A stretch of 64,000 nt of DNA from Eucommia ulmoides (taxonomy: Eukaryota > Streptophyta > Magnoliopsida > Garryales > Eucommiaceae): positions 22,494,803-22,558,802 of the forward strand of contig CM028339.1 in assembly GCA_016647705.1 (NCBI GenBank). Reading direction: 5' to 3'. Shown here one piece after another: positions 13,131-56,796 of this stretch; within the stretch, counting starts at the first letter, position 1; every line of letters begins with the position of its first letter. The notes beneath the pieces are model-generated. The model searched no databases and was not told where the DNA came from. It worked only from the letters and a program-made list of their open reading frames with translations. The translations under genes were made by a program, and so were the position numbers.

Positions 13131-14030
13131 TGATGGGCACTCACGGAGAGACAATGCAAAATAAAAGACAGTCATAAAGAGGCAATATTAATGAAGGGCA
13201 CTCACGGAGAGGTAATACAAAATAAATGAGCACTCACGGAGATACAATACAAAATGAAATATACTCACGGAGAGATATTGCAAAATGAAAAGCACCCACG
13301 GAGAGGCAATGCAAAATAAAAGGCATTCACGAAGAGACAATGCAAAATAAAAACACTCACGGAGAGGCAATGCAAAATAACATGCACTCAAGAAGAGGCA
13401 ATGTTGAATAAATGGACACTCATGGAGAGGTAATGCAAAATAAAATGCACACACAGGGCAGCAATGCGAAATAAATGGGCACTCAAATAAAGGAAATGGA
13501 AAATAAAAGCCACCCACACAGAGACAATGCAAAATAAAGGTACTCACGAGGAGACACTACAAAATAAAAGACATTCACGGAGAGGCAATACAAAATAAAT
13601 GACATTCACGGAGAGGCAATGCAAAATGAAGGCACTCATAGAGAGGCAATATAAAATAAAAGGAACTCACGGAAAGCCATTGCAAAAATAAATGATGCTC
13701 ACAGAGAGTCAATACAAAATAAAAGTTAATAACATAGAGGCAATATAACATAAATGGGCTACTAATGGAGAGGCAATGCACAATAAATAGCCACTCATGG
13801 CGAAGCAATGTAAAATAAATGGGCACCCTCATAGAGGTAATGCAAAATGAAAGGCACTCGCGGAGAGGCAATATAAAATGAAGGGCACTTACGAAGATAC
13901 AATGCAAAATAAATGGGCACTCATGCAAAGAAAATGCAAAATAAAAGCCAATCATGGAGAGGCAATGCAAAATAAAGGCACTCACAGGGAGACAATACAA
14001 AATAAATAACACTCATGATAAATAAGGTTT
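13131..14030 (+). repeat. Tandem array 1, about 28 units of ~31 bp
   Basis: Near-continuous units built on CACTCACGGAGAGGCAATG followed by CAAAATAAA-type sequence, 30-33 bp each and 10-30% diverged from one another. The minus strand stays open for 119 and 145 codons here only because the repeat lacks stops in that direction. Arrays like this are known in the 3'-untranslated region of Tat/Ogre Gypsy elements. Confidence 0.9.
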
Positions 14031-14089: not shown

Positions 14090-14580
14090 TCGGTTTGTTG
14101 CCATAGAGAATTGACTCAAACAATAAAAATCAAACATACCCCCAACCTGTAGTAGGAGGATTAACACGAAATAAAAATTAACATACCTCCCGACCTTTGG
14201 CAGAGGAGGATTGACACAAATGAGAACTAACATACCTCCCGGCCTATGGTAGGGAAGGATTGACACAAAACAAAAACTAATATATTTTCTACCTTGTGAC
14301 ATAGGAAGATTGACACAAAACAAAAACTAGCATATATCCTAAACGGTGGCAAGGGAGGATTGACACAAAACAAAAACTAACATACATATCGGCCATAGAC
14401 AAGGGAGGATTGACACAAAATAAAAACTAGCATACCTACCAACCTATGGCATGAGAGGATTGACATAAAATAAAAACTAACATACCTCTTGGTCATTGGT
14501 AGGGAATGATTGACATAAAATGAAAACTAGTATACCTCCCCACCTATGGCAGGGGAGGATTGACAAGGTAAACACAATGC
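14090..14580 (+). repeat. Tandem array 2, about 10 units of ~50 bp
   Basis: Units contain CATACCTCCCGACCTATGGC, then GGGGAGGATTGACA, then CAAAACAAAAACTA. The spacing is close to 50 bp. It follows array 1 directly but has an unrelated unit, apart from sharing A-rich ends. Confidence 0.88.
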
Positions 14581-19862: not shown

Positions 19863-20021
19863 TGCGTCTCATTGTTGTGCATTAGCTAATGTTGATGCTT
19901 TTATATCGGTGACGTTTTCTTTGCTCTGAAAGAATTAGGGTTCAAATCGGACTCTAGGGTTGCTTGAATAAGCTAAAGTTCCTTCTGGAGGATATTTTTG
20001 TTTTTTCTGTTGTTTTAAGTG

Positions 20022-23000
20022 ATGATAAAACAAATACTTAATAGGCTCCCTAGGAAGCCATCAAAGTCATCCGATAATCGTGATGGTGGAAACCCTAGTT
20101 TCTCTTCAAACTCCAGTTCACGAAGCAGTGAGCTGGCTAGTAGCAGGTCTGGTAGTTCAAATACTTCATCACTTCAGGGCCTCAATTCTACTTCAAATTC
20201 CACGCTAAGCCATGGGAGTAGGCTTCAACAAGCCCCAAATCCAAGGGCTAACGGGAATTCAACTGTTTCAGTATATGAGGCGTTGCCTAGTTTTAGAGAT
20301 GTTCCAAACTCTGAAAAGCAAAACTTGTTCATCAAAAAGCTGAACTTGTGCTGTGTGGTGTTTGACTTTACTGACCCAACAAAGAATTTGAAGGAGAAAG
20401 ACATCAAGCGGCAGACTCTGGTGGAGCTCGTAGATTATGTGACTTCTGCAAGTGGGAAATTCACAGAAACCGTTATGCAAGAAATGGTGAGGATGGTGTC
20501 CGTTAATTTATTCAGAACATTCTACTCCCAACCTCGCGAAAATAAAGTTTTGGAAGCATTCGATTTGGAAGAAGAGGAGCCCTCAATGGACCCCGCTTGG
20601 CCTCACTTGCAATTTGTATATGAGTTTCTTCTGAGATTCGTGGCATCACCAGAGACTGATGCAAAATTGGCTAAGCGCTATATTGATCACTCATTTGTTC
20701 TAAAGTTGTTAGATCTCTTTGATTCGGAGGATCCCAGGGAAAGGGAGTACTTGAAGACTGTTCTTCACCGGATATATGGAAAATTTATGGTGCATCGGCC
20801 ATTCATAAGGAAAGCAATCAACAACATATTTTATCGTTTTATATTTGAAACTGAGAAGCATAATGGAATTGCTGAGTTGTTGGAAATTTTGGGAAGTATT
20901 ATCAATGGTTTTGCATTGCCTTTGAAAGAAGAGCATAAGCTTTTTCTTATTCGAGTACTTATACCACTTCACAAGCCAAAATGCATACCGATGTACCACC
21001 AGCAGTTATCATACTGCATTACCCAATTCGTGGAGAAGGATTGTAAACTTGCCGATACCATTATAAGAGGTTTATTGAAGTATTGGCCAATCACAAATAG
21101 TTCAAAGGAGGTCATGTTCTTAGGTGAGTTGGAGGAAGTTTTAGAAGCGACTCAACCTCCAGAGTTCCAGAGAAGTATGGTACCACTGTTTCGCCAGATT
21201 GGTCGTTGCTTGAGCAGTTCACAATTTCAGGTACATACTTTTCTTTGTACATTGTAGATACTTCACCCTACCCTACCCAAAAATTAAAATAAAATAATAT
21301 AAAATATAGATGTCAGAAGAAGAAGAAAAAAGATAACGAGGGTAATTTGAAATGTGAAAGACCCAAGTTTTACTAACATAAAATAACTGGTTGGGGGTAG
21401 AAAGAGGATAGGAGTACTCAGTTAATTCACCTGGTATGCTACCAACTTCCTTGGATTGCACCTGGTATTGTAATAGCAGCTTGTGTTATCCATTCACACT
21501 GAATATAACGAGTGTGCATTTACTTTGCCTTTGAATTTAGCTTTGCATGACATAAATTTAGTTATTTGAGCACGTTAGAGCCAGTCTAACTCAAGAAACA
21601 GTAATGGAATACTCATTAATCTGGTAAATGCTTGCTAAAATAGTAATCGGGGCCTCCACTTATTTCTCAAATAAGGATAGACACTAATTTGACGTTCTCT
21701 CTTTGTTTTAGGTTCCCATTAATATCCCTACACCCGTTTGAAGACAAGATCTTTAATGGAGAAAATTTCCTAGAATAACTGATAGATATCTCATATTGAT
21801 TAAAAATGTTAGGTAGGGGCAGATGACCTACCATTGTCCTAGTTCTCTACTCATTGAGGTGGCACGTCAACACGTTTTCGAAATCCAAAGGCACTTGAGG
21901 GGTTTTTTCGTAACTGGGATATATATACTCCCCCGGTCCCAATATATTATTTCCAAATTTCCTTTTTGGGATGGCCAAAGTGATTTTTTTCACCTTCCTT
22001 TTCAGCAAATAAAATTTTACCACCTTCCCAAATTAACCCTCTTCTCAACGATTCTTTCAAAAGTAAAAAATTAGCACACTTATTCAGAAGTCAAAAAGTT
22101 AAAACACTTCTGAACCTTTCCCATCAAGGACTATATAGTATATAGTAAAGTGTAAAATATTCAAAAACTACTTAGTGAAAGTTTGTGCACTATTTTTTTG
22201 GTGGCCTCAGGAGCTCCATTTAACAGGGTCCTCATGCTATCAAAAAAGTCATTAAGGTAGCATGGTGCTCAAATTTTGGTGGAAATTAGCAATCTTGCTA
22301 ACTGCTATAGGTTGTGTAGCTAACTAGCTATAGGAATGCAAATTAGAAGATTAGCAGGATATGTTGTAATTTGGTAAAAAATGGAAAAATAGTATATTTT
22401 TAGGTTTGGCTAGGGTTTGTTATTATTAGATTTCCTATAGTGATAGATGGTCTTCTATATCCCCAAGGAAAAGCTGTGTATAAATTGATGGTCTATGAAT
22501 TTGACAGATCAATTGCGTGCAATTGACCATTTATAAACACCGATCTTTGACCGGAGGCTTCTTGGAATGAGGTGTTAGTTTACCAATATGACCCTCTTCT
22601 CTTTCATTGTCTGACATATTCTTTTGTTGATTCTTGAGGTAAACATCTTATGAGTGTTACATATGTATTTGCATGCGTTGTAAAGATTATAACCATCCCT
22701 GTGAAGCATTGACATGGATATAGAAAATCCCGTGGCAGTGAGTTGACTAAGATAGGACAATTAATGTGTGCTTACTAATGTTTGTGGCACACACCCTGTG
22801 TGCAAAATGTAGAAAGTTGTAAAATAAATAGTTATTTGGTAATAGTGGTATTATAGGCATTTCACATCTTGTTGCACCTAAAATCAACCGCCTACCTCTC
22901 TTCTCCAACGTCCAGGCGAGGAGTCATACCTTGTAGTGCGACGAAAGTCTATCTAGAGAGGAAGTTGTATTGAGTCTAAAGGGCAAAAAGTAGACCTCAG

Positions 23001-26000
23001 CCGAGGCAGCGTTCACTTAACCTAATCCTTGCCTAAGCCCAACGTCTATAGCTCACAACCTTCACCTCACTATGATCGCATACGATTCTACCTGTCTCGT
23101 TTATCGAAGGTTTTCCATAAAGAGAAATTCTCTTTAGGTTATGCGCTAGGAATGCTACTATAACTAAGAAATTACGAAACCCAACATTTGATACTCCTGT
23201 TACATTTAAGAGCTAATATAACACATCATCCAAGTATTTCTACCAAAAAATCTAAATATTTACATCAATTGAACAAAAACGAGAAAGTGAGTGGTGGAAA
23301 ATTTTGTTGACGTAGAAATAATTGATATAATAAAGATTCAGTCCTCTTAATTTCTCGAGATTGTTAAATATAACCACTGACATGTCTCTCGTGTCACATG
23401 CTTCTCCAAGCTGTGTCCAACTAATAAATTAAAATCAAAATCAGGTATTTTGCATGTCAAGGCATTTATACAGCGGTGTTATACTTTGAGCTCCTAAGCG
23501 TGTGGGTGCTTCTTAGACTTTGAACTTCGGGTCCTATATTTTGATGTTAAGTTCATTCTGTTCTTTTTCCCTTTTCCACAATGCGCTTGTGTGATCTGCT
23601 TTTATTCTGTAGTAGCTTGGGCATGGATTTTGTGATGTGAAGAGTAAGAAGTCATATATTGTTCTCTATGTGTGAAAGAGAAAGTAAAACTTTGAACTAC
23701 AATGCCAACAAATTCTTCATCCCCCTTAAGTGAGGTCAGCTATATGAAACCGTTTTCGCAATAGAGATCGTTTTAGAGCTAACCTATCAAAGTTAAAACT
23801 TTGAAATAGTGGCTGAAAAATCCATGCTATGAATGCCATTTTTTCTGATTTACTTGGCCACATATTTGCCTTCTAGAGATGACGATTCACCTTTCTTGGA
23901 CCATACAAGAAATCCCTTTTCATCTTCTCTGATCTCTTCTCTACCACCACCACCATGGGAAACAAAGACATTAAGTGGGGAGGTTTTCATGATACAATGC
24001 TGGACGAGCTTCTTTCGAGTGAATTTTTGTTATAATGATGACAAAAATGATGAGATCACCATCCAATCGAAAGCCACGATTTATTTGAACTGGTGGAATC
24101 CCGCATAACTGAATAACTAGCATGTTAGTGGGTTCCACCAACTCAAGTGGTGCATTCTGAGTAGATGGGGATACCACATCATCTATATCGTGGTGAATAC
24201 TTGCTCCAACTAAAGAATGTCCATGTGCTGCAAAAAGTTTTATGGTCAGGTGTGCGAATAGGAGAGATTTCATCCCCACTCCTCTTTACACCACCAAATC
24301 CTCTGATGCACATGTATTGCATGTGCAAAGCAGTTTAAGGAAAAGTGAAATGCATAGTAATAGATGTATTATTTTATTGTAACCTTCTACAAGCTTTGTC
24401 CCAATAATTAAGAGTAAAATGCACGAAGCTTTGTCCTAATATTTTTCACTATGCCATGAAAGAAGCGTGCACCCCTTGGTCGTCAACAGCTTTCCACTTT
24501 GCAGCCAGTCATAAAATAGTAGTTATCCTGTTTCTTTCAATGCCTGTGCATGATGCCAAGCATTTCAAATAGATGCTCCATACCATGAGAGAGTGGTTAT
24601 GGACCTGTTTGGCTTGCCATATGGAAGTTCTTTGCTATATATGCTGAAACTCTGTTTCGATAAACAAATTCACCCAGTGGCTAGTTGTCGTGGTCCGACC
24701 TTTTCTGGCATAGCGGAATGAAAAACCGTTCAGCTCCTTGCATCCCACCAGATAAAGGTAAGCCTAAATATCATCAAACTCGATTTCATCTTGTGTGCCT
24801 CGCTGATAAGGAACTGTGGAGTGACCAAGTGTCGTGGCAGCCACTCTTTAGTGCACATTCTGATGGCCATGAGGCATGATTGCCCAAACAGTAGAGCAAC
24901 ATAACAATCAATGGCTGAGTTTGATTCATTGAGTAACATATATGCGGCATCGCCCCACAATTGCATGAGCCAATAAGTAGGGAAGGTGAACCCAAACCTA
25001 ACCCACAAGTTGGCACATGCTCCTGGTTTTATCCCGGTTTTCCAATTGGTTCCTTAACACATCCCCTAAAATAGTTTTGAGTTCATAGGGAAAGATGTTT
25101 GAAACCACCATTCAGAGGCGGACACCTAATACTGGTCATAGACCTTTGCATGGTATTGCCTATAAAACTCGCATCCTTATAGGGACCCAAGAGGTGTCAA
25201 GAGCCCGCCCTTGGGTTGCCTTTAGGATGCTATTGCTCGCTTAATGCCAGGAAGATGGCATAAGGTAGTGACAGCCTGACAGGCAACAACGATCTAAGGC
25301 TTTCCCCTTTTAGTACTTTATTTATGCAGTTTTTCCTCAGGGACCACAACACATTTCACCTCACTCTGGTGATATAACGGCCTTCATTTGAGCAAAAGAC
25401 ATCCGATTGATGAACCGTTTGAACCCCCTTTCTTCGAAGGACAAGTAGTACTTCCAATATGAATCTAATGACCATTTAAACCCGAAGCTGCACAATTACT
25501 TAACAAGTACTGTCATGGCCTTTGTGATGTTGAATGATTTCCACCTTTTATATGAGAAGTTATGGTAGCTTCTGCAGACCGTGACACTAGCACATGGAGG
25601 GTCGGTAATATTTTCTAGAAATAGTTTCTGGATGTAGTCTTACATGAGTGGAAATCTGTTTGAACAGGCGTTGAAAACAAACAAATAACAAAAACGAACT
25701 TTAGAGATGCGACCAAACATTCCCCCATATAATATGTAACTTAAATTTCATGTGCTCTCTCTCTCTCTCTTTGACACACACAAAAATGATTACATTGTTA
25801 ATTGCCGATATTTACAGGTGGCCGAGAGGGCATTGTTCTTGTGGAACAATGATCACATTGAGAACCTAATCAAGCAAAACCGAAAAGTCATACTGCCGAT
25901 TATCTTCCCTGCCTTGGAAAGGAATGCAAGACGCCATTGGAATCAGGCGGTACAGAGCTTGACTTTGAATGTCCGGAAAATCTTCTCCGACGTTGATCCT

Positions 26001-26177
26001 GAGCTCTTTGAAGAGTGCTTGCAAAAATTCGAGGAGGACGAAGCCCAAGAGCAAGAGATGAAGGTGAAACGTGAAGCGACGTGGAAACGCTTAGAAGAGA
26101 TTGCCGCAATGAAAGCAGCAAGTAATGAGCCAGTGCTAGTTCCCTGCCGGACAACCGCTCACCTGCCATCCTGCTAG
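20022..26177 (+). CDS. PP2A B' (B56-type) regulatory subunit
   Basis: It encodes a regulatory B' subunit that binds the PP2A scaffold and catalytic subunits and directs the serine/threonine phosphatase to its substrates. Exon 1 is 20022-21230 (403 codons) and exon 2 is 25818-26177 (119 codons plus stop), giving 522 residues, a normal family length. The junction [17 protein letters not shown] has donor CAG/GTACAT and acceptor TTTACAG, both in phase 0, as in the Arabidopsis B'gamma group. The start [16 protein letters not shown] also fits that group. A Ser-rich N-terminal region (about residues 15-85) precedes the HEAT-like B56 domain (about 90-490), with signatures [53 protein letters not shown] and [20 protein letters not shown] 20022 is chosen because the family starts there; the GTG just before it is not needed. 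No breaks are seen. The 4.6 kb intron is unusually long and holds repeats. Confidence 0.96.
21231..21927 (+). other. PP2A intron, 5' part, no element seen
   Basis: Intron sequence after the donor GTACAT. It is AT-rich with no gene or clear repeat end. Confidence 0.5.
21928..22135 (+). mobile_element. Stowaway-like MITE end inside the PP2A intron
   Basis: TACTCCCCCGGTCCCAATAT at about 21928 resembles the Stowaway/mariner terminus (CTCCCTCCGTCCC) and follows a TA repeat, the usual TA target. The far end (GGGACGGAGGGAGTA) is not found. The piece seems truncated or strongly diverged, with its right edge near 22135. Confidence 0.5.
22136..24690. other. PP2A intron, middle part, nothing recognised
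   Basis: Mixed sequence with no convincing domain. A region near 22890-23150 is less AT-rich, which suggests an old insert, but I recognise no family. The open frames on both strands at 23830-24280 have no recognisable motif. Confidence 0.35.
24700..25480 (-). mobile_element. Possible plant-mobile-domain element remnant
   Basis: On the minus strand a 92-codon open stretch (25008-24730) contains [20 protein letters not shown], which loosely resembles the GP-WLLQLWLH part of plant mobile domain proteins carried by some MULE and retroelement families. Upstream on that strand, AIFLALSEQ near 25255-25230 is also weakly reminiscent. The resemblance is short and could be chance. It would be an insertion in the PP2A intron read against the gene. 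Confidence 0.25.
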
Positions 26178-30460: not shown

Positions 30461-31161
30461 ATAATCTCATATAAGATATTAACGCTTTTTTTATTAACAA
30501 CATATAAAATTTTGAATCTGAAAATAACTTTTTATTTATAATAATTAATGGAAGATTAAATTACAATTTATATATCAACAGTTGAGATTAAATTAATAAG
30601 ATGCAAATTGCATTCGGCCAATAATACTGGGGGTTAGAACGTAATTTTAAAAAATCAATTGTCGAACAAAAACATATTTATTCCAGCGGTTATAATTCCC
30701 GAGACCAACATCATCTGTGGGTCGCTCTATTCTAGCTGCAAGTCACTTGTACTTCAATAAATGTACAAGTTTCGAAGCAAGAACATCTGATATAATGGAA
30801 GTTCTAATTGTACTGTAACGTAGCTCTCAACTTACAGCCAAAGACAACCCAGCTGCATGTCATGTCATTAGGATTCATCTGTGCGCATTTCAATCCTGAT
30901 CTCTCTCTCTCTCTACACGCCATCGTGGCATTGGATTGAATCTCTCTATCTCTCTCTCTAAATTCATCCCAGAACTCGAATTCAATGTAATTTCTCCAAG
31001 TTTCAACGATTGAATCTGATGATAGTTGAATCAAATCATGAACTAATTCTTCCAAGATCTTTGAATTTGTTTGTACAGAGCGACTGGGAGGGGGAGGGGG
31101 CGGGGGTGAGGCTGTGTAGAGACGGAGAGAGAGAGTGGATTAGAGAGAGGGAGAGAGAGAA
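30461..31161 (+). promoter_or_regulatory. Upstream region and leader of the carboxylesterase gene
   Basis: AT-rich sequence gives way to CT-rich tracts at about 30900-30960 and GA-rich sequence at 31085-31160 just before the ATG, which fits a promoter plus 5' leader. CCAAT-like GGCCAATAAT lies near 30616. The exact start of transcription cannot be set from sequence. Confidence 0.5.
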
Positions 31162-34100
31162 ATGCCGAGTGTTGCTGTGAAGCTCTACAGTGTGTTCTTC
31201 AAATTCCTCCTGAGGCACCGGCTGCAGAACCTAATCCAAAATCCGGTAACTGAGGGCGACGGCAAGAGCTCCTTCGGCGTGACGTCGCGGCCCGAAGAGT
31301 CGATCGCTCCGGCAAACCCTTCGTTCGCCGATGGTGTTGCCACCAAAGACATCCATATTGACACCTTAACCTCTCTTTCCGTGCGTATCTTCCTGCCAGA
31401 CTCGTGTCTGGTCTCCCCGGACTCGGATCCAAAAGCTAGGGTTTGGGCTTCAACGAGACGATCGGATCCTGTAGTTGGATCAGATCTGAATCACAGTGTC
31501 GAACGACGGAGCAGCTACGGCTCGTCTGAAACTAATAATTTAGTTACGCGTGCAGACAATCACAGGAGGATTAGTTATGGTTCCGTTGGTGATGAATTGA
31601 ATCTGAAATCGGAGGGTGGTGTTTATAGAGGATACGCTCCGGCAAGTAATAACTGTCGAAAATTGCCGGTGATGGTGCAATTTCACGGCGGGGGATTTGT
31701 GAGTGGGAGCAATGATTCGTGGGCAAATGATTTCTTCTGTCGGAGGATTGCTAAGTTGTGCGATGTCATTGTACTGGCTGTTGGGTATCGGCTGGCTCCA
31801 GAGAATCGGTACCCAGCAGCGTTTGAGGATGGATTGAAAGTGTTGCATTGGTTGGCCAAGCAATCGAATTTGGCAGAGTGTAGTAAGTCATTGGACAGTC
31901 GTAGGGGCAGTGGAGCAGACTTGAGGAAGAATGATTCTCAGCGGCATATTGTGGATGCTTTTGGGGCTTCGATGGTGGAGCCATGGTTGGCTGCTCATGG
32001 AGATCCATCCAGGTTCCTCTTTGATTCTGCTAAATTGGTTGATGAATTTCCATTTCAGGACAATAAATTTTTAATTTTTGTAAAGAAATTCCGTGTCTAG
32101 TTTTGTTACTCTCGAGGGTGATAAACTTTCGACTGTGAAAATGGAAAAATGAACCGAAAAGTTCTTACAAATAAGGTTAAATTGGCTGTCGTGTGGTTGA
32201 TTAAAATTCTGAAAGTGGGAATTCAATTCTTTGAGTAACTTCACTTTCTGAATAGCAGTATAGTTGTAATGTAGGAAGCGTTGGAACGAATAAACTTGAA
32301 AGTGTAGAAACTCAATGGGCCTAACTCACTCTCAAAAGACGCGGATTGCCCTACACTTCATATATAGCTCAGGATCAGGTAACACAAGCGATTTGGGATT
32401 CAACATGCCACCTCACTCGCAGGGTGGACTCCTTGATATGCTACTGTGAACGGATATCGGAGGAAGAGCCCAACATCAATGGGGGATTGAATAGAAAGCA
32501 ATATTGCAAAAGAAAGTTGTGACTGGTGAAAATCTCTAAGATGGTGCTTGGTTGCATGGAATTAGGACCTTGGAATTAGAAATGAATGCATGTAAACTTC
32601 TAATTTTTTGCCTGAGATCGTTTCTAATTTCACTTCCAAAGCTCCAATTTTGCGCCTCCAAACGCTACCTAAGCTACGTTGCAATTTCTGCATCCTAGAC
32701 TTCCTAGTGGACACTGGCCAAGTTCCATGCTATGTGAACTAAATCATGCTATGTGTTAAAATGATTGCTGCAGTTGTTTATTTTATGCTTAGAGGCTTCA
32801 ATTGTTTTGGTGTTATGTTATTCCCATGTCTTTATACATTGACATTCATGTTTTGGACTGCTTATCACGTGTTGGCACTTGCATCTATTCTTTACTTTGT
32901 TATCTGAAGTCTTAATGTGAATATGGGCACGAAGCTGCACATATCTCACTTAAAACTTGGCACTTTGAGCATGGTGCTTACTGCGGTGTGTTGCATTATG
33001 TCCTGTTTTCACAATTTTTGTAGTTTGAGGTTTTGTCTTTTTACTGGCAAATGCCCCGTGCTTAAGGCCGCTATTTCAGGTAAAATTTAGTTACGAAGAT
33101 ATATTAAATCATTGGCTAACTTTGGTCAGAAGGGATAGTTATACAAATTCAAATGAAAGTTCAAGTAGCAATATGATGAAATTGAAATATTAGAAGGTTG
33201 ATCTTTTTTTTTTTTAATTTAACGGTCTGGGAAGTGGGGTGTGAGAAATATTTGAGCGGGAAAATTCCCTCCCAATATCTCTCAGGGAAATCTCATTCAT
33301 TCATGTTTATCAGCATCATCTCAATCATTAATATAAAGACATTTTCAAATACTGTCTTGATTTATTATATAGGTTTATTGTTTGGGCGTGGATATGTTTA
33401 GTATTTTTAATTCCACAAGCTCAATCAGGTCTAGTTTGGCATATATGGTTTTTGGTCCATTAATAGGACTTTTTTTGCCCAAAATATTGGGGTAAATGTA
33501 GTTATGAACAAGGCAGTGATCATTTTGCTATATTCTTACAGTATTGGTGTAGCTGTGCGTATCCATCAGCACGTCCTTCACAAGTTTAAGAGTTGTTGGA
33601 TTTGTTCAGTTGTTAATTGTGTACTCGCCAAACACTATATCCAATCTAAACTTGTATCAAGAACTGTTAAGTTTTAAACATAACCTAATTTGGTCCAAGC
33701 TTCATGCATATAACTCTGGAGTCTGCTAAAGCAGCTAGACATGCTTAGCATTTTTCATGTAAAATGATAGTTCCTAGAAAGAGAGGAGAGGGGAAAAAGG
33801 GTAAAGAGACTAAGGGCCTGTTTGATAAAACTGAAAATGAAGTGCTGAAAAGTATTGAATTTTAAGTGTTAAATTTGTTAGGTATTGAATGTAAGTACTT
33901 ATCTTTTTTATTACTTCTAGCCCCCAAAAATATATCTCGATACAAATTTATGTCTCTAAATAACCTTTACTGCTTTATCTTTCTAAAAATTCTCTCTCTC
34001 TCTCTCTCTTTTCTAAAATTTTCATTTTTTTCTCTCCACAATTGTTCGTATATTACTTTTTTTTTCCCCAAGATTTTATGGTAACAATGTTACGTGGTGG

Positions 34101-34870
34101 TTGTGAAAGATAGATATTTGATGATTTTAAGTAATAAGTCACTTCATTTAAAATTTCAAATTATTTTTTAAGTGATACTTCTATTTTAGGCGGCTGCTTC
34201 AATTATTTTATCAATCACACTTAATTTGGATAAAGTACTTAATGCGCTCAGTTTTAGGTGCTTAATTTTGTTATCATACAGGCCATAATCTTCCTCTATG
34301 TTTTAACTTGATTTTGATCTTACTTGAAACAGGTGTGTTCTTCTCGGGGTGAGTTGTGGTGGAAACATAGCTGACTACGTGGCAAGAAAATCTCTAGAGG
34401 CAGGCAAAAGGTTGGATCCGGTCAAGGTGGTGGCTCAAGTCCTGATGTACCCATTCTTCATAGGGAGTATTCCAACACATTCGGAGATAAAACTGGCAAA
34501 TGCCTACTTCTATGACAAACACATGTGTATACTTGCTTGGAAACTCTTTTTACCTGATGAAGAATTCGATTTGGACCACCCCGCAGCCAACCCCCTCATA
34601 CCCGGACGGGGCCCACCTCTGAAACGGATGCCACCGACACTGACGGTGGTGGCAGAACATGATTGGATGAGGGATCGAGCCATTGCATACTCAGAGGAGC
34701 TCCGGAAAGTGAATGTGGATGCACCCGTGCTCGAGTATAAAGACGCAGTTCATGAATTTGCTACTCTTGACATTCTACTTAAGACTCCTCAAGCCCAGGC
34801 TTGTGCTGAGGACATTGCTATTTGGGTGAAGAAATTTATCTCGCTTAGAGGACATGAGTTCTCTTATTAG
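31162..34870 (+). CDS. Plant carboxylesterase, CXE11/CXE16 type
   Basis: It encodes an alpha/beta-hydrolase of the plant class-I carboxylesterase (HSL, GID1-like) family, predicted to hydrolyse ester bonds; the natural substrate is unknown. Exon 1 is 31162-32012 and exon 2 is 34333-34870, giving 462 residues. Donor CCAG/GTTCCT and acceptor AAACAG join in phase 2 through codon 284 (Arg) to read DPSRCVLLGVSCGGN. The oxyanion motif HGGGF starts at residue 175, the nucleophile is Ser291 in GVSCGG, the acid is Asp394 in EHDWMRD, and the base is His424 in AVHEF. The ending RGHEFSY matches Arabidopsis CXE11 and CXE16. A Ser-rich insert (about residues 85-160) before the catalytic core is typical of this clade. 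GID1 receptors have lost the catalytic His; this protein keeps it, so an active enzyme is expected. No breaks. The 2.3 kb intron holds three small elements. Confidence 0.96.
32303..32487 (-). mobile_element. TRIM-like LTR and part of interior in the esterase intron
   Basis: On the minus strand an LTR of 103 bp (32405 down to 32303) begins TGTTGAATCCCAAATCGC and ends TTTCTACA, matching the element at 27319-27700. The adjoining 82 bp (32406-32487) match one interior unit of that element. No second LTR is seen. It is a broken copy lying opposite in orientation to the gene. Confidence 0.75.
32540..32669. mobile_element. Short MITE, copy 2, in the esterase intron
   Basis: 130 bp with ends GATGGTGCTTGG and CCAAACGCTACC and a perfect TAA target duplication (32537-32539, 32670-32672). 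It belongs to the same family as 26427-26563 and 35465-35593. The 3 bp TAA duplication points to the PIF/Harbinger (Tourist) group. Confidence 0.82.
32670..33813 (+). other. Esterase intron, nothing recognised
   Basis: AT-rich intron DNA between two MITEs, without gene or clear element ends. Confidence 0.5.
33814..34285. mobile_element. Tourist-like MITE in the esterase intron
   Basis: 472 bp. The left end GGGCCTGTTTGATAAAA pairs with the reverse complement of the right end, TGGCCTGTATGATAACA. It is flanked by TAA at 33811-33813 and 34286-34288. TIR sequence and 3 bp TAA target fit PIF/Harbinger. A CT run and T-rich core lie inside. It ends 47 bp before the splice acceptor of exon 2. Confidence 0.82.
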
Positions 34871-35593: not shown

Positions 35594-35876
35594 TTATTCT
35601 TGAACTTGTTGGTTTGATGGAATGAAGTTCTATCATTTTTTTCTTCCCCAAAAGGGGAAATGGCTGTTGGTGTGCCCTAAAATGGAGGGTGAAGCAAGGT
35701 TTGTGGATAAATGATGAATTGAATCCAAAATTTCATCACAGAAACTTCATTTTTATTGATTTCACCAAATGTAAAATATTCAATCCTTAGATGATGTTTG
35801 GGGTTCTTGTTCTTTGTTTGTTCTGTTTTCTGTTTGTGTGTTTGTGCTTTTGTGAATGGTAGCATAGAGCGGGAGT
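35594..35876. other. Esterase 3' flank, nothing recognised
   Basis: Short spacer up to the Copia-type LTR. No motif is seen. Confidence 0.4.
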
Positions 35877-36498
35877 TGGTGACCCACAGATCTATCCTAA
35901 AGGGAGTGAAGTGAATTGGGTAGTAATAAAAATTGAAATAATTAAATTATCAAACCAGCAATCACCAAATTTTCCTATCCAAATATTATCTTGAGTTTTA
36001 ATGGAAACGTGTTTATCTAAATGCATAACCAAACAAATAGGGATAGAGAAATTGAACACACAGATTTATCCTGATTTGGCAAACTATTCTTATTTTCGTT
36101 CAGTTCCTTGAGTTCTTTCAGGTATTTTGTAATCCACTAACTCTGATTCTTTTTTCATGGAGGAGCTAAAACCTTACAATTTTTTTTACAAGCTAAAAAT
36201 TAACATAATTTTTTTTTTAGGATCAAAATCAAACCTTTTACAATTTCTTTTTTCCAAACTAAAGACGAACATTATTCTTTTACAGGTTATGAATGAAACA
36301 TATCCATCTTTTTACCAAGCTAAAAAGTAATATAATTCTATTATACATAGAATCAAACATAATCATTTTACAGGTTAAGAATCAAACTTATTTACCTTAA
36401 TTAGACACCGATCCAAATGTGTCTAATTCTCTCACATTCATCAATACAAAAAATATCAAGTTTCTTCCCACATAAGGTTCTACCACCACAATACAATA

Positions 36499-36763
36499 GG
36501 ATTAATTATACTTTACCTCCTGTGGTTAGATCGTTTTGCACTTTGTCCCCTGTAGTATTTTCGTCACTACGTTTTTCCTTGTGGTTAGGCCTTGTTACAC
36601 TTTATCCCTTGATGCAGACCTAATTACAATGGGCAAAGTGATGACGAAGAGGATAAAGTGCAACAAAGACCTAACCATTGGGAGACAAAGTCATGAAGAG
36701 AATACCACAAGGGGCAAAATGCAAAACAACCTCACCACAAGGGGGTAAAGTATAATTAACCCC
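36499..36763. mobile_element. Mutator-like fold-back MITE
   Basis: 265 bp, almost wholly a long inverted repeat. GGATTAATTATACTTTACC on the left faces GGTAAAGTATAATTAACCCC on the right, and the arms of about 110 bp continue with GTGGTTAG and CACTTTGTCCC-type segments. The 9 bp target duplication is AATACAATA: whole on the left (36490-36498) and split on the right by the later LTR (36764-36768 plus 39885-39888). A 9 bp duplication is the mark of Mutator-type transposition. Confidence 0.85.
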
Positions 36764-36768
36764 AATAC

Positions 36769-39700
36769 TGTCACACCCCATCCCGGACACCCGTCACCGT
36801 GGGGCCGGTGTGGCGTCGACATGACATTACCTAACCGTCAAACCAACTCATATATTCCAACAAACATAAAACAATATACAAATCATCTATACAACAAATA
36901 TTAATTTAGTGCTATGGAGACACACCCGTCGTCAAAAATAATAATACCGAAATATAAATACCCATGAACCTCTCTTAGGTTCACCTCAGCCGGCTCATCA
37001 AGAAAATCCTCACACAACTCCATCGTAGGACTCTTCCTAGCTCCAGTAAGGGATCGACCGACTCTTATCCGCTACACCTGCGAGTGTACTATCTTCTTAG
37101 TAAAAATATTTTACAATAATAATTCATTCTACAACATCTAAATGGATTAAACGTAAGTAAATAAAACACCACATAGCTCGTAAAATCTCAAGAATATAAG
37201 CAGTGAAAGTAAAACGATATAGATAAGTTCCATTCAATTCCATCTAGTATAAAACCATACCAATCACCATAATAAATAATAAATCACCTAATAATAAATA
37301 AAACACCACATCTCAAAACACACACCTCGAACACAACACACAGTGGCTAGCCATAGTGATCGTTTAACCTCACGATCGGGAGTTACAATAGTACCGTAAC
37401 ATCCGTATGAATGCCTTCCTACGAAATATCCACACCCCTTTTGGGAAGAAATATAATTCACACCCCTTACGGGGAGAAATATCCACATCCCATGGGAAGA
37501 ATCCACACCCCTTACGGGGAGAAATATAATTCTCACTCCTTTCGGGGAGAACAACTATGGCATCATCAAAATCATCAATATAGTTAAAAATCCACATCCC
37601 TTACGGAAAGAAATACATTTTCACATCACATCATCAAAAATCCACACCCCTTATGGGGAGAATATAAACCACACCCCTTTCGGGGAGAATTTCCAAAATC
37701 ACGTTTTTCACTCTCCTTTTTAAAAGTACCACCAATTTCAGTAAAAAAACCAATTTTTCACCTTTGTACCACCGATTTTAGTAAAAACTATTTTTTCCAC
37801 CTTTGTTTTTAGAAAACCAAGCATTTTTAGAAAACCATATATTTTTCACTCTCTTTTCAAAACCACCCATATCCAACGAAAATTATTTTTAATCCTTCTT
37901 TTTAGAAACCAACACAATTCTCCGAAAATTCATTTTACCAACTCACCCCAAAAATCTGTTTGATCCATATCATTTATGAAATCGTACAGTGTAAGTAAAT
38001 ACATATGTCATCATATATATACACAGAAAATAGTTTGGCAAGAAGACAGTACACTCACCTGAATATCCGATTTCGTAAACTTTAACCGACTAACCTTAAT
38101 CAGAACTCCGGTGCCTGCAAACCTAATGGTGACAGGGCCTAAATCAATATTTTATGTAAACATAACTTAATCATGAATTGTGGACCCTAAATTTCATAAT
38201 TTTCTATTCCCTGCGCTTTATTATGAAATTTACTATATCGAATTTATTTGTGTAAACGGTCTCACTATTTCTTATCGTCATTTCGACATTTTTCATGCGA
38301 ACACATAATGCTAAATTCAATGATAATGATAACATGTATTTTACATTGAGACAATTAAATGTATATATTAAAGAAGTGCGAATTTTTTTACTTTCCCCGA
38401 ATTTTTCACCGGCCGAGAGATTGGATTTATGTTTTTTAGTGGGGTGGTTTGTGTAATTTCCCCTCCTTTTTTTTTTTTTTTTTTTTCCTTTTCTTCTTCT
38501 TTCTTTTTTGTTTTTGCTTCCTGCTCTGTTTCGGGTTGGAGCTCCAGCTGATCTCCTTCCTCAACGCCGGCCAACTCTCACTCCTCCCGCCGATCTTCAC
38601 CGCCAACGATCCGAGCACACATACACACCCAGAAAACTCTTACACACATACCCGATCACATACCCACAACTAAACACACACCTACCCACTTCTCTGTCGA
38701 CTTAACTCCACGGCCGACGACCACCCTCAACGAACCACCACCGACCCTGTCGATCACCTATTGACCAAACTCACCACACACACAACAACACACACACACA
38801 CGACAAACACGGAGACCCATCGCCGAACAATCACTATCCCCGTCGACCGAACCATCACTGACCCTCTCTCTCTTTTCATTTTCTGTTTCTATTCTGGGAC
38901 TCGCCGTCGACCGACATTGCTCAGATCACACCACTCATCCACGAAGACAACACTCACGACGCCGAACGGAACACACACCCAAAATCAAAACCCACATTTT
39001 CTCTCTCTAACTTTCCGGCCGGCAACACCCACTCTCTTGAACACCCATACACACACCAAACACACCCACATACACTGCACACCACAAATGCACACACACC
39101 CATGCAGCACACGTATCACACAGTAGGCACACACACACAACCGACAACTCTCTCTCTCCTCACCGATGGTGATACCTCTGATCACACATACACATACGCC
39201 ATGTTGAACACATCCCACACTCAAACATCAAACACAGGCACCCACATGGCCAACCAACAAAACCCACAGCATTAAACACACACACAGACATACATGGCTA
39301 GACGACTGAAAAATATACCCACATACACATGCATATCCACATACCTTTACCGAACAATGGCGACGAAGCACGTACCACCGGAGCGAAATGTCCCAACAGC
39401 ACACAATCACACACACACGCACTAAGTCACGCAAACCCACCGTCGGCGACGTCACACAACCAAACCCACTGTCGGAGAAATTTAGACGACGGCAACACTC
39501 AAAACCCACTCCGGCGGACTCTCTCTCTCTTCCGTTCTCTTTCTCTCTCTCTTCTTCTTCGCGATTCTTCTCCTGATTTCTCTATATATATATATATATA
39601 TAAGATCATGTAGCCGACCAAGTGGCCTGTCCCCCGCCACTCGTTCCTCTCTGTCTATATATATATATATATATATATATAAAGAATTTACACAATCTTC

Positions 39701-39879
39701 CCCCTATTTTTAGTTAAGATTTTAATTAAACCCATTCTCATTTTAATGGTTTGAAAAATTACAATTTGATTCCAAAAATTTAACTTCACATAATTAATTT
39801 ATACCATCCACCCCAATATTTTTGAAACATTTTAAAACGCGATTTCAATCATACGCATATCACAGATCGGGGTCTTACA
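36769..39879 (+). mobile_element. 3.1 kb solo LTR (Del/Tekay-like Gypsy, inferred)
   Basis: It starts TGTCACACCCCATCCCGG, ends GATCGGGGTCTTACA, and is flanked by a perfect 5 bp duplication AATAC (36764-36768, 39880-39884). It has no coding domain and no second LTR. Inside are a conserved box CACGATCGGGAGTTACAAT at 37371, a tandem array (37430-37690), CA-rich and CT-rich blocks (38600-39580) and TA runs (39582-39602, 39656-39680). Assignment to Del/Tekay chromoviruses rests only on LTR length and terminal sequence. It looks complete as a solo LTR. The perfect duplication suggests it is the youngest of its family here. Confidence 0.85.
37430..37690 (+). repeat. Tandem CACCCCTTACGGGGAGAA array
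   Basis: About eight to ten units of 20-35 bp built on CACACCCCTTACGGGGAGAA. Each holds the palindrome CCCCTTACGGGG or CCCCTTTCGGGG. It lies just after the conserved CGATCGGGAGTTACAA box of the LTR. Confidence 0.85.
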
Positions 39880-41364
39880 AATACAATATATGCTCGATTA
39901 ATGTCTCGATAAACTATGTAAAATAACTAAGTGAGAATAAGACTTTACTCAATTTAAGCATACAAATAATATAAATTAGATTTCACTGGCAAAAATTATT
40001 TCACAAGATGTTCAAGATATTTTAAATTGAAAACGACTTCTCAAACAAAAATACTATAAGTTCAATTTAAGAATATAACTCAATTAAAGCACAGTTAATT
40101 TTGAGCAAGTAAATGAGAGCAATCTCACCGAGATTTCTTTTAGAATATCGTAGGAAAGACTCAAACCCAAAATAGCAAGAACAATGATTTCTTTAAAGCA
40201 AAATTTTTTCTCTTGAAAATAATCTCAGCAAAATAATACTCTTAAACTTTATGAATATGACTGATTAAAACTTTTGCTTTTGATTGTTATTAAGTCAGAA
40301 AAATGTTGGTCTTATTATATAGATTTCAAACTATGTCTATAACGATTATTTTTCAAAACATATGAATATTTATGTCACATATAGACCCCATATAAGATAC
40401 TTCTTCAAATTAGGTATATTTGACATAAAAATACTCTTTGAAAAACTCAATTTAATCTCCAAAACTTCTTTAATTCAAATCCCTTAAATATAGAAAGAAA
40501 TTTTACTGGTAAAACTCATGGAACCAATTAATATAGGGACTAATTAATATGATTTTCAAAATATATGATAGATATATGAAATATACTCAAATCCTCTTAA
40601 AATCAGATTTTATAACTTTTAAAACTATAGGATTTGGGTTGAAGATTTTGAAAAACGAATCAGTCAACAATCTGATTCCTAACTCGTCGATTGACCGAAA
40701 TTCCAGTTGGTCAACCAACTGCCTCATGAAGATCCTACTTTTTTTTTTTTGTTTTATACCCTGAATCAGTCAACCGACTGTATTTGTGGTCGACTGTTCA
40801 GGCCAGACGTAAAATTCCAATGGCTACTGATCACGTCAGTCGACAGGTAATCGTGTTGTTTAATCGCCTAGACCAAAAGCTTCTCTATCCATGCACTGCT
40901 TCTCTTGCTCAACCGCCCACTTGGTCGGTCAACCGTTTGGTCCAGAACATTTTCTTATTTTCATAATTTAAAACATTTTCTTTGAACAATACTTTGCAAA
41001 AAATATTTATACTCTTAAATTTATCACTTCTTACTATGATATGCATAAAATAATCGATTTTAAGTGTTGTGTGTAATCTTATTCAGGTTGTATTAAGAGT
41101 ATAAAGGTATTGAATTATTTTACCTAAAAATACAAAAAAAAAATCATCTGCTCCAAAAAATCTTCAACGTCTTCAATTGCAGCCTTCTTAAGTCTTTTGT
41201 AAAATTTCATCTTTGTAAATCATCAACAAGCATTATCTTTATGATTCAATCTTTTTCTCATTTTCTCAAACGGAACTCAAATTTGAAATCACTCAATAAA
41301 TATATTAGTTCCGTAAAACATCAATGTTGAATTGTCCACCAAAACATCTAGGGTCAACAGGGGT

Positions 41365-45765: not shown

Positions 45766-48345
45766 ATATGCCTTGCAGGATTTAAACTAGGTCCCCGTAA
45801 AAAAGCCCAGGAGGCCACTGAAGAAACCAGTGATGGAATAAGAAGCCCAATATTTTATGGGGGTGATAAAGAATTTTGTCTATAGGATCGTCAAGCAATT
45901 GGTCAAAGCTATGGTGCACATTTCAATGCTATATTTACTGTTATCCTTTTTGGAGCACAGACAAGCTCCACTTACGGTTCTGAACGAGGCCAACCTACTG
46001 AGTACCATCCCATCGAAAAAGTTTGTTACTTTGGTTGAACAAATATTGGGATTATACACCATCACGTTCACTGATAGCGACATGGATGGAGATGTTACGG
46101 GGCATAACAAGCCTCTAAATATCACCGTGGAAAGCCACGGGATGTTCATAGCTCGAGTACTGATTGATAATGGATCGCATTATGCCCGTGACAAAGCTAG
46201 AATAAATGGGGATTGTTTTGGGTGGCTTCTGACCCTTAAAGGCAATATTTTGAGCATTTTATGGGTCAAAAAGAGAAAGACTTGGGAAAATTGATTTCTT
46301 AATTGAAATCAGCCTAATCTAGAATTCAATGTGAACTTCTAAGTCGTCAACATACTGACTTTATAGAATATACTATTCAGAAGGTTGTGGATCCACAACC
46401 CTAGTCCGATGCCCTCATCGCTATACCAGAAAATAAACTTTATCATTGACAACACCTTGTATGTGATTAAGGAAAACTCCGACATCGTTCTTTTCACCAA
46501 GCGATAAGACGATATGTCCCATTGGTGGCCGAAGAGAAAAAGAAGATTGAGGTCTCCTATCAAATGTTTGACGTTGTGAATACCATGATTTTAAAGGAAG
46601 GAAAGCATGAGTTGGTCCTAACACTGTCAAAGACTGTGGCCGTTGTTGCCAAAAAAATAAAATCTCTAGGTTGCGTTCCCAAAAAGGGACTCAGAAAGAA
46701 GCTAGATGGAATGACTAAGCTGATCAAGGTTAAAGGAAAAAAAAAAAAGAGATTCGGATTGGGGTACGAGCCCACCAAAGAGGACATAGCCAAGTTGTTC
46801 TAGGATAAAAAAAAGTCGAGAGTCGAATTTATCAACTACTAGTTATTCTACACATCTGGGTTACCTTTCTATACCTGGTTGAGACCATCAACCAAGAAGA
46901 CAAGACAGTGGGGTTCGAACTCCACCCTGAAAAAATATTAAATGGATAAGTTGTATACGTCATCTCAGAAGAGGCAGGGCTAAGTTGCAAGTCCGGTATC
47001 AGAGGAATCAAAATGTTATGGAACTAGAACTCTTATGTCGGTTCGCTGAGCATTTCGGTGAAATTGGGGAATTTCTTGTATTTACCTTTCCATTCAACTA
47101 GCCTTCTGGATAGAATTGATCTACTTTGTAATGACTCATTTTAATGAATACGATTCTACTTTATCCAAATTATTACTTAAATGTTTAAATTTTTATTTTT
47201 TATTTTTCAGGTTACTTAAATTACCTGTATATAATATATGTAATATCATTGAGTTTAAAAGCGATGAGTATGATTCAATACAGAGCTAGATTATGACATG
47301 ATGGAAAGATAAATAAAAGAAGAGTCAATGTTTCCAAGAGATGGCGAGAAACGAAAGGACTTTTTGGAATTTGAGAACAAGCCAATTCTCAGTACGAATA
47401 AGATAGAATTGATAAATCTGAGGACCACAGAGGACCTAAAAAAAGATAAAATTGGATTTGGGCTCATCGCTTTGGAGAAGAATGAACTGGCCACGCTCTG
47501 AGTTGCATATCAAGAAGTCTTTGTCTGGTTCTACGATGATATGGTAGGACTGGAGAAGAGAATCGTCACTCACAAGTTTCCTATAAAGCCTTGATGTGTT
47601 CTTGTCAAGTAGAAGTTGAGGAAGCTAAGGCTTGTTTCTAGCCTCGAGGTCAGGGACGAGATCGTAAAGCAATTCAATGCCTGGATCATCGAAGTTTGCA
47701 ACTACAGTGAATGGCTCTCCTACGTCGTTCCAGTGCTAAAGTCCTTTGGAAAAATTAGAGTATGTGTGGATTATTGTGACCTCAATCAAGCAAGTTCGAA
47801 AGATTATTTTCCACTGCCAAACATACATATCATCATCGACAATACTACTGGGCGTAAGTTATACTTGTTTGTCGATAGATTCTCCGGCTATGGTCATATT
47901 TTGATGGACGAAGACAACCGGGAAAAAACAATATTTACCACTCCGTGGGGAGTCTTGTACTATAGAGCGATGCCTTTCGATCTCAAAAATACCAAGGAAA
48001 TGTACCAAAGAGCAATTGCGACCCTTTTCCACGACATCATGCACAAAGAAATGGAGGTATATGTCGACAACATGATTGTCAAAACTCAAGAGAATGAGAA
48101 ACATCTTTACCACCTAAAATAATATCTAATTGACTCTGAAAGTATCAGTTGAAGCTCAACCTAGCAAAATGTGTCTTTGGGGTAACATCAAGATAACTCT
48201 TAGGTTTCATGGTAAATCGACATGGAATTGAGATCGATCCTTCAAAAATTCAAGCCATTATTGAGATGTCACCACCAAGGAATGAAAAAAAGATCTAAGT
48301 ATTTTTGCATTGAATAAATTTTATTGCTAGATTTATCGGTGGAGA

Positions 48346-49306: not shown

Positions 49307-49978
49307 TGTAAGACCCCAATTGTAGCATGTAGGTCATTTTAGTCGCATTTTAGAGTAATTGGAAATTCGGAGTGAAATTGGGTCAATTAAAGTTCAAAAT
49401 TTAAAAGTTTGGGGGTTAAATTGAAAAATTAAGAAAACATTCAATCCAAAATTTTTACATTTAATTCTTGAAAATAAAAATCCTTGGGGTGAAATTACAA
49501 TTCCAGAAACTTTTAAAAATGGAAAGTGACTAAGAAAAAGATGTTAAGGAATTAGGGGGAGAAAAGAGGAAGGAGGTCTCGGAGGTTCGTGATCGCCTGA
49601 GATAGTGGGTTCATCAGCGTGAGGATGTGTTTCGGTGTTGATCGTTGCTTAGTTTGGCTGAGTATAGGTGTGTACCGTCCATTTGTCTCGTTCGACGGCA
49701 AGGGTATGTGAAGAGGTGTGTATGTGCTCTGTTTTTCTTCTGTTTTGGGGTGTGTCAAGTGTGTGTGGGTGTGAAGGTGTTGATTTTGGTGTGTTGGTCA
49801 AGCTTGAGGGGGGTGTTATTGGTAGAACGGATTGCTGTGTGGGTGAGGTTGATCGTTGAAGTGGGGTGGTGAAAAAGCTGTCGGAGATAGTGAAGAAAAA
49901 GAGAAAGAGAAACGGCTGGTCTGATCACAAAGAGAAGCAGAACGAGGAAGATGGATGTTCGCCTAGGCGATGGAGCAT

Positions 49979-53036: not shown

Positions 53037-53179
53037 GATTTTAAATTTTTACATTTAATTCTTGAAAATGAAAATCCTTGGGGTGAAATTACAATTCTAG
53101 AAACTTTTAAAAATGGAAAGTGACTAAGAAAAAGATGTTAAGGAATTAGGGAGAGAAAAGAGTAATTTAACTAAAGATA

Positions 53180-53184
<5 letters not shown>

Positions 53185-53272
<88 letters not shown>
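53185..53272. repeat. (TA)44 microsatellite
   Basis: An unbroken TA repeat of about 88 bp in the right-hand part of the split LTR. The corresponding place in the left-hand part (near 49565) lacks it and about 100 bp next to it. Confidence 0.95.
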
Positions 53273-53276
<4 letters not shown>

Positions 53277-54559
53277 TATGTTCATGCATGTTATGATCAC
53301 AAATTGTGAGAGGAATGAACAATCTAGAAAACCTAGAGAGAGAGAGAGAGAGAGAACCAAAGGAATGAGGTCTCGGAGGTTCGTGATCGCTGGAGATGGT
53401 GGGTTCATCAGCGTGAGGATGTGTTTCGGTGTTGATCGTTGCTTGGTTCGGCGAAATATGGGTGTGACCGTCTATTTGTCTCGTTCAACGGCAAGGGTGT
53501 GTGAAGAGGTGTGTATGTGCTCTATTTTTTTTTATTTTTTTTTTGGGGATGTATCAAGTGTGTGTGGTTGTGAAGGTGTTGATTTTGGTGTGTTGATCAG
53601 GCTTAAGATGGGTGTTGTTGGTAGAATGGGTTGCTGTGTGGGTGAGGTTGATCATTGAAGTAGGGTGGTGAAAGAGTTGTCGGAGATAGTGAAGAAAATA
53701 AGAAAGAGAAACAGCTGGTTTCATCACAAAGGGAAGCAGAACGAGGAAGATGGTTGTTCACCTAGGCAGATAGGTGCTCACCTCGGTAGAGAATGGTTAG
53801 TGTGCAAAAACAGATAAAAAAAAGTGCGTTCGCCTAGGCAAACGACCTAAGGCCTAGGCGGTGGAGCGTCAGTGAGTAAACTAGAGAAGGGAAAAAGCGT
53901 GTTTGCCACGGCGGTGGATCTCTCGCCGAGGCGGACGGAGCAGGAGCATAAACTATGAAATTTTAAAGGAAATCGACAACCATTTCAGAACGGGTAACGT
54001 TTCTCGTTAAATTCTATGATTTGTTAAATTAAATTACTAGCCTTAAAATATCGAAATGGCAATAATAATTATTGAGACCGTTCACATGAATAAAGTTTAT
54101 ATAGTAAACTTTAACGGAGCAATATTAATCGAATAATAATTTTTCCTAATAAAATGTGGGAAATTGGAAAATTACGGAACGTAGGGCTTGCATTGCATGA
54201 TTAGGTTATTTATACACAAAATATTAATTTAGGCCATGTCACTAATAGGTTCACAAGTATCAGAGTGACGGTAGAGTATAGTCAGTAAAAGCTTTTCGGA
54301 ACGGATCACCAGGTGAGTGTACTGTCTTCTAGTAAATTACAAAAATCTATTTTTTTTTTTTGTGTGTATATGATGAAAAATTTGTTTAATTAAAATGGAC
54401 AAAATTTGCAACTGATATGGATCAAGCGGTTTTGGGTATTTGTGGTAAAATGATTTTTGGAACAAGTTGGTTTTAAAGGTGTTGGAAGAATTTTTAGACC
54501 GAGTCGTTTGTTTTGAGGTAGAAATTTGATGTTTGGTCCTACTAGACCATGGTATTTAT

Positions 54560-54660
54560 CTGCTTGGCGTAGTCCGGCAGAGTGGCGATTATCTGTTTCC
54601 CATAGTCCGACAGAGTGACAATTATCTACTTATCATAGTCTGACAGAGTATTGTGACCCG
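54560..54660 (-). repeat. Tandem CATAGTCCGACAGAGT units in the third LTR
   Basis: Three to four units of about 33-40 bp with AGTCCGGCAGAGTGGCGATT or AGTCCGACAGAGTGACAATT, and TATCTG or TATCTAC spacers. In LTR orientation they follow the conserved CGATTGGGAGTTACAA box, as do the arrays at 37430 and 44478. Confidence 0.7.
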
Positions 54661-55385
54661 TTAGGAAAGCAAATCTTACGAGTGGTACGGTACCATTGTA
54701 ACTCCCAATCGTGAGACTAAACGATTATGTGGTTAGTCGGAGGGTGTGTGGTGTTTTGTCGTATATGGTGAATGATGTGTCCGTGTATATATTTATATAT
54801 TAGTGTATTTGTCGTTTTAGTTGTTTTACACCATTTGGTGGGATATAGTATTCTGGTGAATTTTCACTGCTTGAGTAGAATGTGATGTGTATATATATAT
54901 ATATATATATATATGAGTTGGTTTCTGTGGTAACAGAAAAAGAGAGTTTTCCTTGTGGTATGTGATTTTTATATTATTGTTCGATATGTGGTATTTATAT
55001 GTTTTTATACTTGATTTATACTAAAAATATTTTTATTACAAAGACAGTATACCGATAAAAATTTTGTTTTCAAGTGCTGCAATTAGGAGTTGGTCCCCTA
55101 CTGACGCTAGGTAGAGTCAAGCGATGGTGAGGTGTGGAAGTATTTTGGGAGGAGCTGTCTGAGACGAACCTGTGAGAGGTTTCTTGTTGTTATTTTTTAA
55201 TATTATTATAATTCAGAGACAGGTGTATCCTCAATTAGAGAAGATGTATATGACTTGATTTTTGTGGTTGTATATTTATGTATGCTCTTGTCGTTTTTCT
55301 AGTTGGTTTGACTTTCAGGTGATGCCATGTCAACATCACACCAGGCCTAGGGCGATGGGTGTGCGGGGTGGGGTGTGACAGGTTG

Positions 55386-56540: not shown

Positions 56541-56796
56541 TCTCGGGCCCAGCGACCTTGCTTTCAATACTGGAAACATGTGTCTTTGGTCACCTGATTA
56601 AAGAACCAAAAATTGTCACGTCCGACCGCCGGTCTACTCTGATCTCGAGACTATAGGCTCTATTTTTAGGGAATGATTACCCACACTCTCGAAATCAGCA
56701 CTGACCAACGGTCGGGTGTGACAATTTTACGTTCTCTACTCAAGTGACCAAAAACACATGTTTTCGATGTCAAAAGCAAGTTCACTTGGCCCGAGA
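56541..56796. repeat. Long inverted repeat, ~110 bp arms
   Basis: The left arm 56541-56650 and right arm 56686-56796 are reverse complements at roughly 80-85%, around a loop of about 35 bp. Matching blocks include TCTCGGGCC with GGCCCGAGA, AAACATGTGT with ACACATGTTT, TTTGGTCAC with GTGACCAAAA, and AATTGTCACGTCCGACCG with CGGTCGGGTGTGACAATT. RNA from it would form a strong hairpin. Confidence 0.8.

Follow-up and report, generated by a model that had tools for sequence, protein, structure and literature searches.

Layout of the locus

A nest of three transposable elements was re-read letter by letter at positions 35872-41364 of a 64-kb stretch of Eucommia ulmoides DNA (the window; G000:C15:22494803-22558802, within the 946.7-Mb genome that was used for the copy searches). 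It consists of an outer, putatively solo long terminal repeat (LTR), a Mutator-like miniature inverted-repeat transposable element (MITE) lying in it, and an inner solo LTR that stands in one copy of the target duplication of the MITE. The original prediction, made from the letters of the window, held that the order outer LTR, MITE, inner LTR can be read from the duplications; the exact nesting of these duplications supports it, and its coordinates for the nest were borne out to the base.

Pfam assigned two genes in the surroundings, one for a PP2A B56 subunit, with frames at 20019-21254 and 25740-26174, and one for an alpha/beta hydrolase, with frames at 31144-32097 and 34328-34867; the nest begins about 1 kb past the last detected frame of the latter.

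From left to right the nest reads as follows. The outer LTR is preceded by the 5-bp flank GGAGT (35872-35876, no strand assigned) and followed by GGGGT (41360-41364), and the two agree at 4 of 5 bases. The left piece of the outer LTR (35877-36498, including the left MITE target duplication) starts with TGGTGACCC and the right piece (39889-41359) finishes with GGGTCAACA, an inverted match to the start; the strand of both pieces is presumably minus, going by the appearance of their motifs. The left target duplication of the MITE occupies 36489-36498 (AATACAATA at 36490-36498, or CAATACAATA if 10 bp are counted) and is followed by the fold-back MITE of 264 bp (36499-36762; termini GGATTAATTATAC / GTATAATTAACCC) and by (C)AATAC (36763-36768), with which the right copy of the MITE duplication begins; the AATAC in it (36764-36768) also serves the inner LTR as its left duplication. 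The inner element, 3111 bp, was located at 36769-39879 with its sense on the minus strand (sense-strand ends TGTAAGACCCC...GGGGTGTGACA; plus-strand start TGTCACACCCC, finish GGGGTCTTACA); AATAC (39880-39884), its right 5-bp duplication, and AATA (39885-39888), the remainder of the right MITE duplication copy, complete the series. At 63022-64000 (minus strand), truncated by the end of the window, lies a sequence distantly related to the outer LTR; it is free of inserts at the matching site, 63718-63752.

The split duplication and the order of insertion

The inner element carried a perfect 5-bp duplication of its own, AATAC on both sides. Deletion of 36769-39879 together with one AATAC restored the nine-base duplication of the MITE, as had been predicted, and AATACAATA is read intact at 39880-39888, to the right of the inner element; apart from its two places on the plus strand (36490-36498 and 39880-39888), the exact word was found in the 64 kb at one further position, 60509 on the minus strand. 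The length of 9 bp given for the MITE duplication stood as far as the exact 9-bp match is in place, but the letters can also be read as 10 bp: C36763 can either close the MITE, which leaves a 9-bp duplication, or be counted with the duplication, which then has 10 bp (CAATACAATA). If the two termini are taken as equally long, the longer duplication is the neater reading; the norm of the MITE family is 9 bp.

Chance recurrence of the 9-bp match, which had been named as a ground for refutation, was examined. One-mismatch matches to the duplication 9-mer, an AT-rich word, were commoner in the window than expected (78 vs 46), and 72 of 2,172,570 pairs of 9-mers inside the outer LTR were identical; since similar words are frequent, the argument rests on exact position and not on the rarity of the word. 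Given the composition of the outer LTR, two bases agree with a probability of 0.297 per site; for matches of 5 bp and 10 bp to fall together at these set positions by chance, the probability is then about 1.2e-8.

The left flank of the MITE is AATACAATA, and the right copy of that word is broken behind AATAC, where an LTR that is itself flanked by AATAC has come in; therefore the MITE came first. The two inserts adjoin, with just (C)AATAC separating them, as they would if the inner LTR had been there earlier and the MITE had inserted beside it later. A MITE entering beside the LTR would, however, have copied bases of the LTR end, and its left flank would then not read AATACAATA, whereas the arrangement C-AATAC-[LTR + second AATAC]-AATA follows directly from the MITE having come first; the reversed order is accordingly given next to no credence. 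Only insertion of the MITE first and of the inner LTR second accounts for the letters.

The MITE and its family

The MITE matched itself in inverted orientation along its full length (264 bp, no coding); its predicted fold had an energy of −58.9 kcal/mol (z −8.56), equalled by none of 200 shuffles. A genome search gave 1256 candidate places, 40 of which were scored, the window copy included; the other 39 were fetched with 100-bp flanks. Under a strict rule (exact match and good termini) an exact duplication of 9 bp was found in 17 copies and of 10 bp in one, and a control with swapped right flanks gave a duplication in 0/39; under a looser rule, one mismatch allowed, a match of 7-11 bp was found in 25/39. 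Two copies among the 17, L030 and L034, share the same duplication and are 98% identical, so that at most 16 are independent. Target duplications of 8-11 bp serve as a criterion for Mutator-like elements in one study (PMC3903597), and the lengths found here fit the Mutator superfamily, in which the MITE may on this ground be placed; the label Mutator-like in the original prediction is supported by the duplication length and the inverted repeats of the other copies.

The end patterns of the MITE and of the LTR gave 0 matches in viral_contigs and genome_contigs, collections without plant genomes as such; the 18-base MITE end gave 0 matches in paper texts, which is uninformative on whether the family is described.

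The inner LTR and its family

A direct repeat between the halves of 36769-39879, as a second internal LTR would give, was looked for and none was found. The inner 3.1-kb element is a solo LTR: a single LTR bounded by TG...CA, with an intact 5-bp duplication. The original prediction, which had called it an LTR element, was right in this but had not said that the LTR is solo. A genome search yielded 14,808 candidates, of which 40 were scored, giving 20 loci (L048-L067). Both ends were fixed by other copies, TGTCACACCCC and TCTTACA recurring at the same positions. Solo copies with 5-bp duplications were L050 (GTACA), L051 (TTACT), L054 (ACAAC) and L057 (TTTTT); together with a further one bearing a TAAAT duplication, seen as three copies of one C8 locus, the independent solo LTRs of the family besides the window copy number 5. 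At the three C8 positions (75.82, 75.85 and 76.00 Mb; L058-L062, L064) one and the same solo LTR recurs, each time with TAAAT and with flanks that do not differ, which suggests local segmental duplication. The flanks of L054 (C17:10425423-10428593) resemble, by eye, the related LTR at 54.7 kb of the window, which would make this copy another nest.

Transitions made up 201/240, 174/204 and 182/225 of the differences between L048 and, respectively, L049, L050 and L051; an excess of this kind is as expected from the loss of methylated cytosines.

One element of the family with two LTRs was found at C16:42670991-42684836, with GTAGA on both sides. Four bases past its 5' LTR starts TGGTATCAGAGC, the primer-binding site, which we take to be of the tRNA-Met type; since this site stands beside the sense 3' end of the LTR in the C16 copy, the inner LTR of the window has its sense on the minus strand. 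The internal region (L068) is 8101 bp long and its longest stop-to-stop frame 194 aa. A Pfam scan (E 0.1) of 8 of the 33 L068 frames of at least 55 aa gave no family above the cut-off and a single match below it (MAML2_TAD, 0.063), in what is a single, possibly decayed copy. A C17 copy shares internal sequence with it (94% over 2472 and 1333 bp), but in this copy the region is interrupted: a long element in which a reverse transcriptase was detected (PF00078, E 3.8e-25) sits in it. This C17 element (L069-L070, C17:16770921-16787783), possibly of the Athila type, lies near the primer site of its host, with the joints ACGTG / ACGTC. From the few copies seen and the 8/33 frames scanned, the inner family looks like a large retrotransposon derivative (LARD) or another non-autonomous element.

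A sequence distantly related to the inner LTR was noticed in the window at 53043-55380 (plus-strand sense; blocks 64-67% identical, ending at 55380). Beside it stands TGGGTAAATTACTAATGTTGCCCC, which is like a MITE terminus, then four bases, then the LTR; only 4 of 20,000 random 28-mers of the window were as similar to the window MITE end as this flank. A preference of the inner LTR family for sites next to MITE ends was considered on this account and is very improbable: it was not supported, no such terminus being seen by eye, without a count, in the flanks of the other copies.

The outer LTR and its insert-free relative

The outer termini, TGGTGACCC / TGTTGACCC, form an inverted match at 8/9 positions. 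The description of the outer element as a solo LTR flanked by GGAGT/GGGGT held in that the flanks are in place and the termini match, but the duplication is just 4/5. A primer-site match (up to 2 mismatches) adjoining either end was not found. The outer LTR has no coding portion in the window, and the Copia type that the original prediction gave it is a putative one. The left piece, 35877-36498, and 63022-64000 are linked by blocks of 61-68% identity, and across the insertion site the outer LTR and its relative both read TTCTACCACC, 15 bases, CTCGATTAAT; neither word has another occurrence in the window. The joined site (36380-36498 + 39889-40160), aligned to 63610-64000, scored 157, a value reached by 0/2000 random right halves (mean 71, maximum 135) in a control from which stretches overlapping the relative were excluded; with overlap allowed, 5/1000 were as good (maximum 546).

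The original prediction had treated 63022-64000 as an empty site and had proposed the alignment of both flanks with it as a check. The stretch is insert-free and the join passed when anchored, but it is a diverged paralogue, not an allele, and the right flank alone was insignificant; as far as such an alignment can tell, the relative may be used as a fair but distant stand-in for an empty site. It also bears on the possibility that the outer LTR family already contained the MITE and brought it here when it spread, in which case the MITE would not have inserted at this locus: the one relative seen, 63022-64000, has no MITE at that site, and the possibility is held to be very unlikely. It would not affect the order of the MITE and the inner LTR.

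Divergence was compared with the nesting order. The MITE stood at p-distances of 0.183-0.226 (median 0.205) from the 39 copies and the inner LTR at 0.067, 0.078 and 0.080 from three copies; the series (outer LTR old, MITE in the middle, inner LTR young) agrees with the nest, the outer family being seen in one relative.

The reading of the nest as three successive insertions has to be weighed against the following. How far a copy stands from its relatives does not give the age of its insertion; 21 of the 39 other MITE copies gave no exact duplication under the strict rule; the outer LTR flanks differ at 1/5 bases and its right end is fixed by no second copy; the right flank (39889 onward) alone, unanchored, scored 146 against the relative with a shuffle mean of 151, and 453/1000 shuffles were as good against 63022-64000. 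The last of these, together with the agreement of the flanks at 4/5 only, would also be found if 35877-41359 were not a single LTR, its right piece being unrelated and the flank match due to chance. Such a composite origin is unlikely in view of the inverted termini (8/9), of CTCGATTAAT standing 15 bases from TTCTACCACC in both copies and being otherwise absent from the window, and of the score of the joined site, 157, which exceeds the best of the 2000 controls (135).

Other features in the window

Direct repeats were observed at 49449-49968 / 53043-53767 (97% over 123 bp, 89% over 408 bp), the two repeat blocks being split by a TA microsatellite in the second copy (53043-53767); they may represent a pair of LTRs or else a duplication of part of the sequence. 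Two diverged tandem arrays lie at 13120-14018 and 14106-14565, with repetitive minus-strand frames across the first; long imperfect palindromes at 10197-11026 (67%) and 56541-56796 (73%) are perhaps further fold-back elements; a reverse transcriptase fragment was detected at 47613-48119 (PF00078, E 2e-8).

Probable course of events and significance

Three successive ordinary insertions explain the nest, with a probability that we put at roughly 95%. An LTR retrotransposon would have landed some 1 kb downstream of the final alpha/beta-hydrolase exon detected and would have been reduced to a single LTR, probably via recombination between its LTRs. A Mutator-like MITE then entered this LTR, the target being cut with a stagger of 9 (or 10) bp that duplicated AATACAATA, a step that the letters record. 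Later a full-length LTR retrotransposon entered the right copy of this duplication by a 5-bp staggered cut at AATAC, again recorded in the letters. LTR-LTR recombination probably then removed one of its LTRs together with the internal part, so that a solo LTR of 3111 bp remained and the 5-bp duplication was kept; this last step is suggested because a single LTR with a perfect duplication has a two-LTR relative. With a primer site of the type assumed above, an internal region of about 8 kb and no reverse transcriptase found, the inner family was probably mobilised by the enzymes of another element.

The nest may be set beside several known systems. Nested transposons whose order can be inferred are a standard feature of plant genomes. 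REANNOTATE, as described in PMC2672092, reads the order of nested plant elements from interruption and by its own statement there leaves the duplications unchecked; as in its nests, the younger element interrupts the older one, the order follows from the nesting and a solo LTR keeps its target duplication, whereas here the order is also set at base level by the split duplication. LTR retrotransposons nested in Mutator-like elements are reported to be common in maize and rice (PMC3903597); in those cases, too, an LTR retrotransposon disrupts a Mutator-like insertion, but the elements described there are coding Mutator-like elements, and here it is a MITE, struck in its target duplication and not in its body. 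For rice, PMC1940013 describes solo LTRs formed by recombination, the mechanism proposed here, with more of them from families with long LTRs, and LARDs that share LTRs with autonomous partners; the inner family, in contrast, is known without such a partner. According to PMC12550479, Mutator MITEs make up 41.5% of the MITEs in 207 plant genomes, and the window MITE is like those described in being short and of high copy number, with inverted termini and duplications. No paper on an LTR inserted exactly in a MITE duplication was found in a narrow literature search; insertions adjoining a MITE have some chance of landing in its duplication.

The nest is thus a clean example of a common process, with nothing new in kind: it is real, well read and ordinary, and views of how these elements work are unchanged by it. 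Nine or ten bases fix the order of two insertions without dating; the locus is well suited to teaching and to testing software for the reconstruction of nested transposons, and in related plants it might serve as a presence/absence marker.

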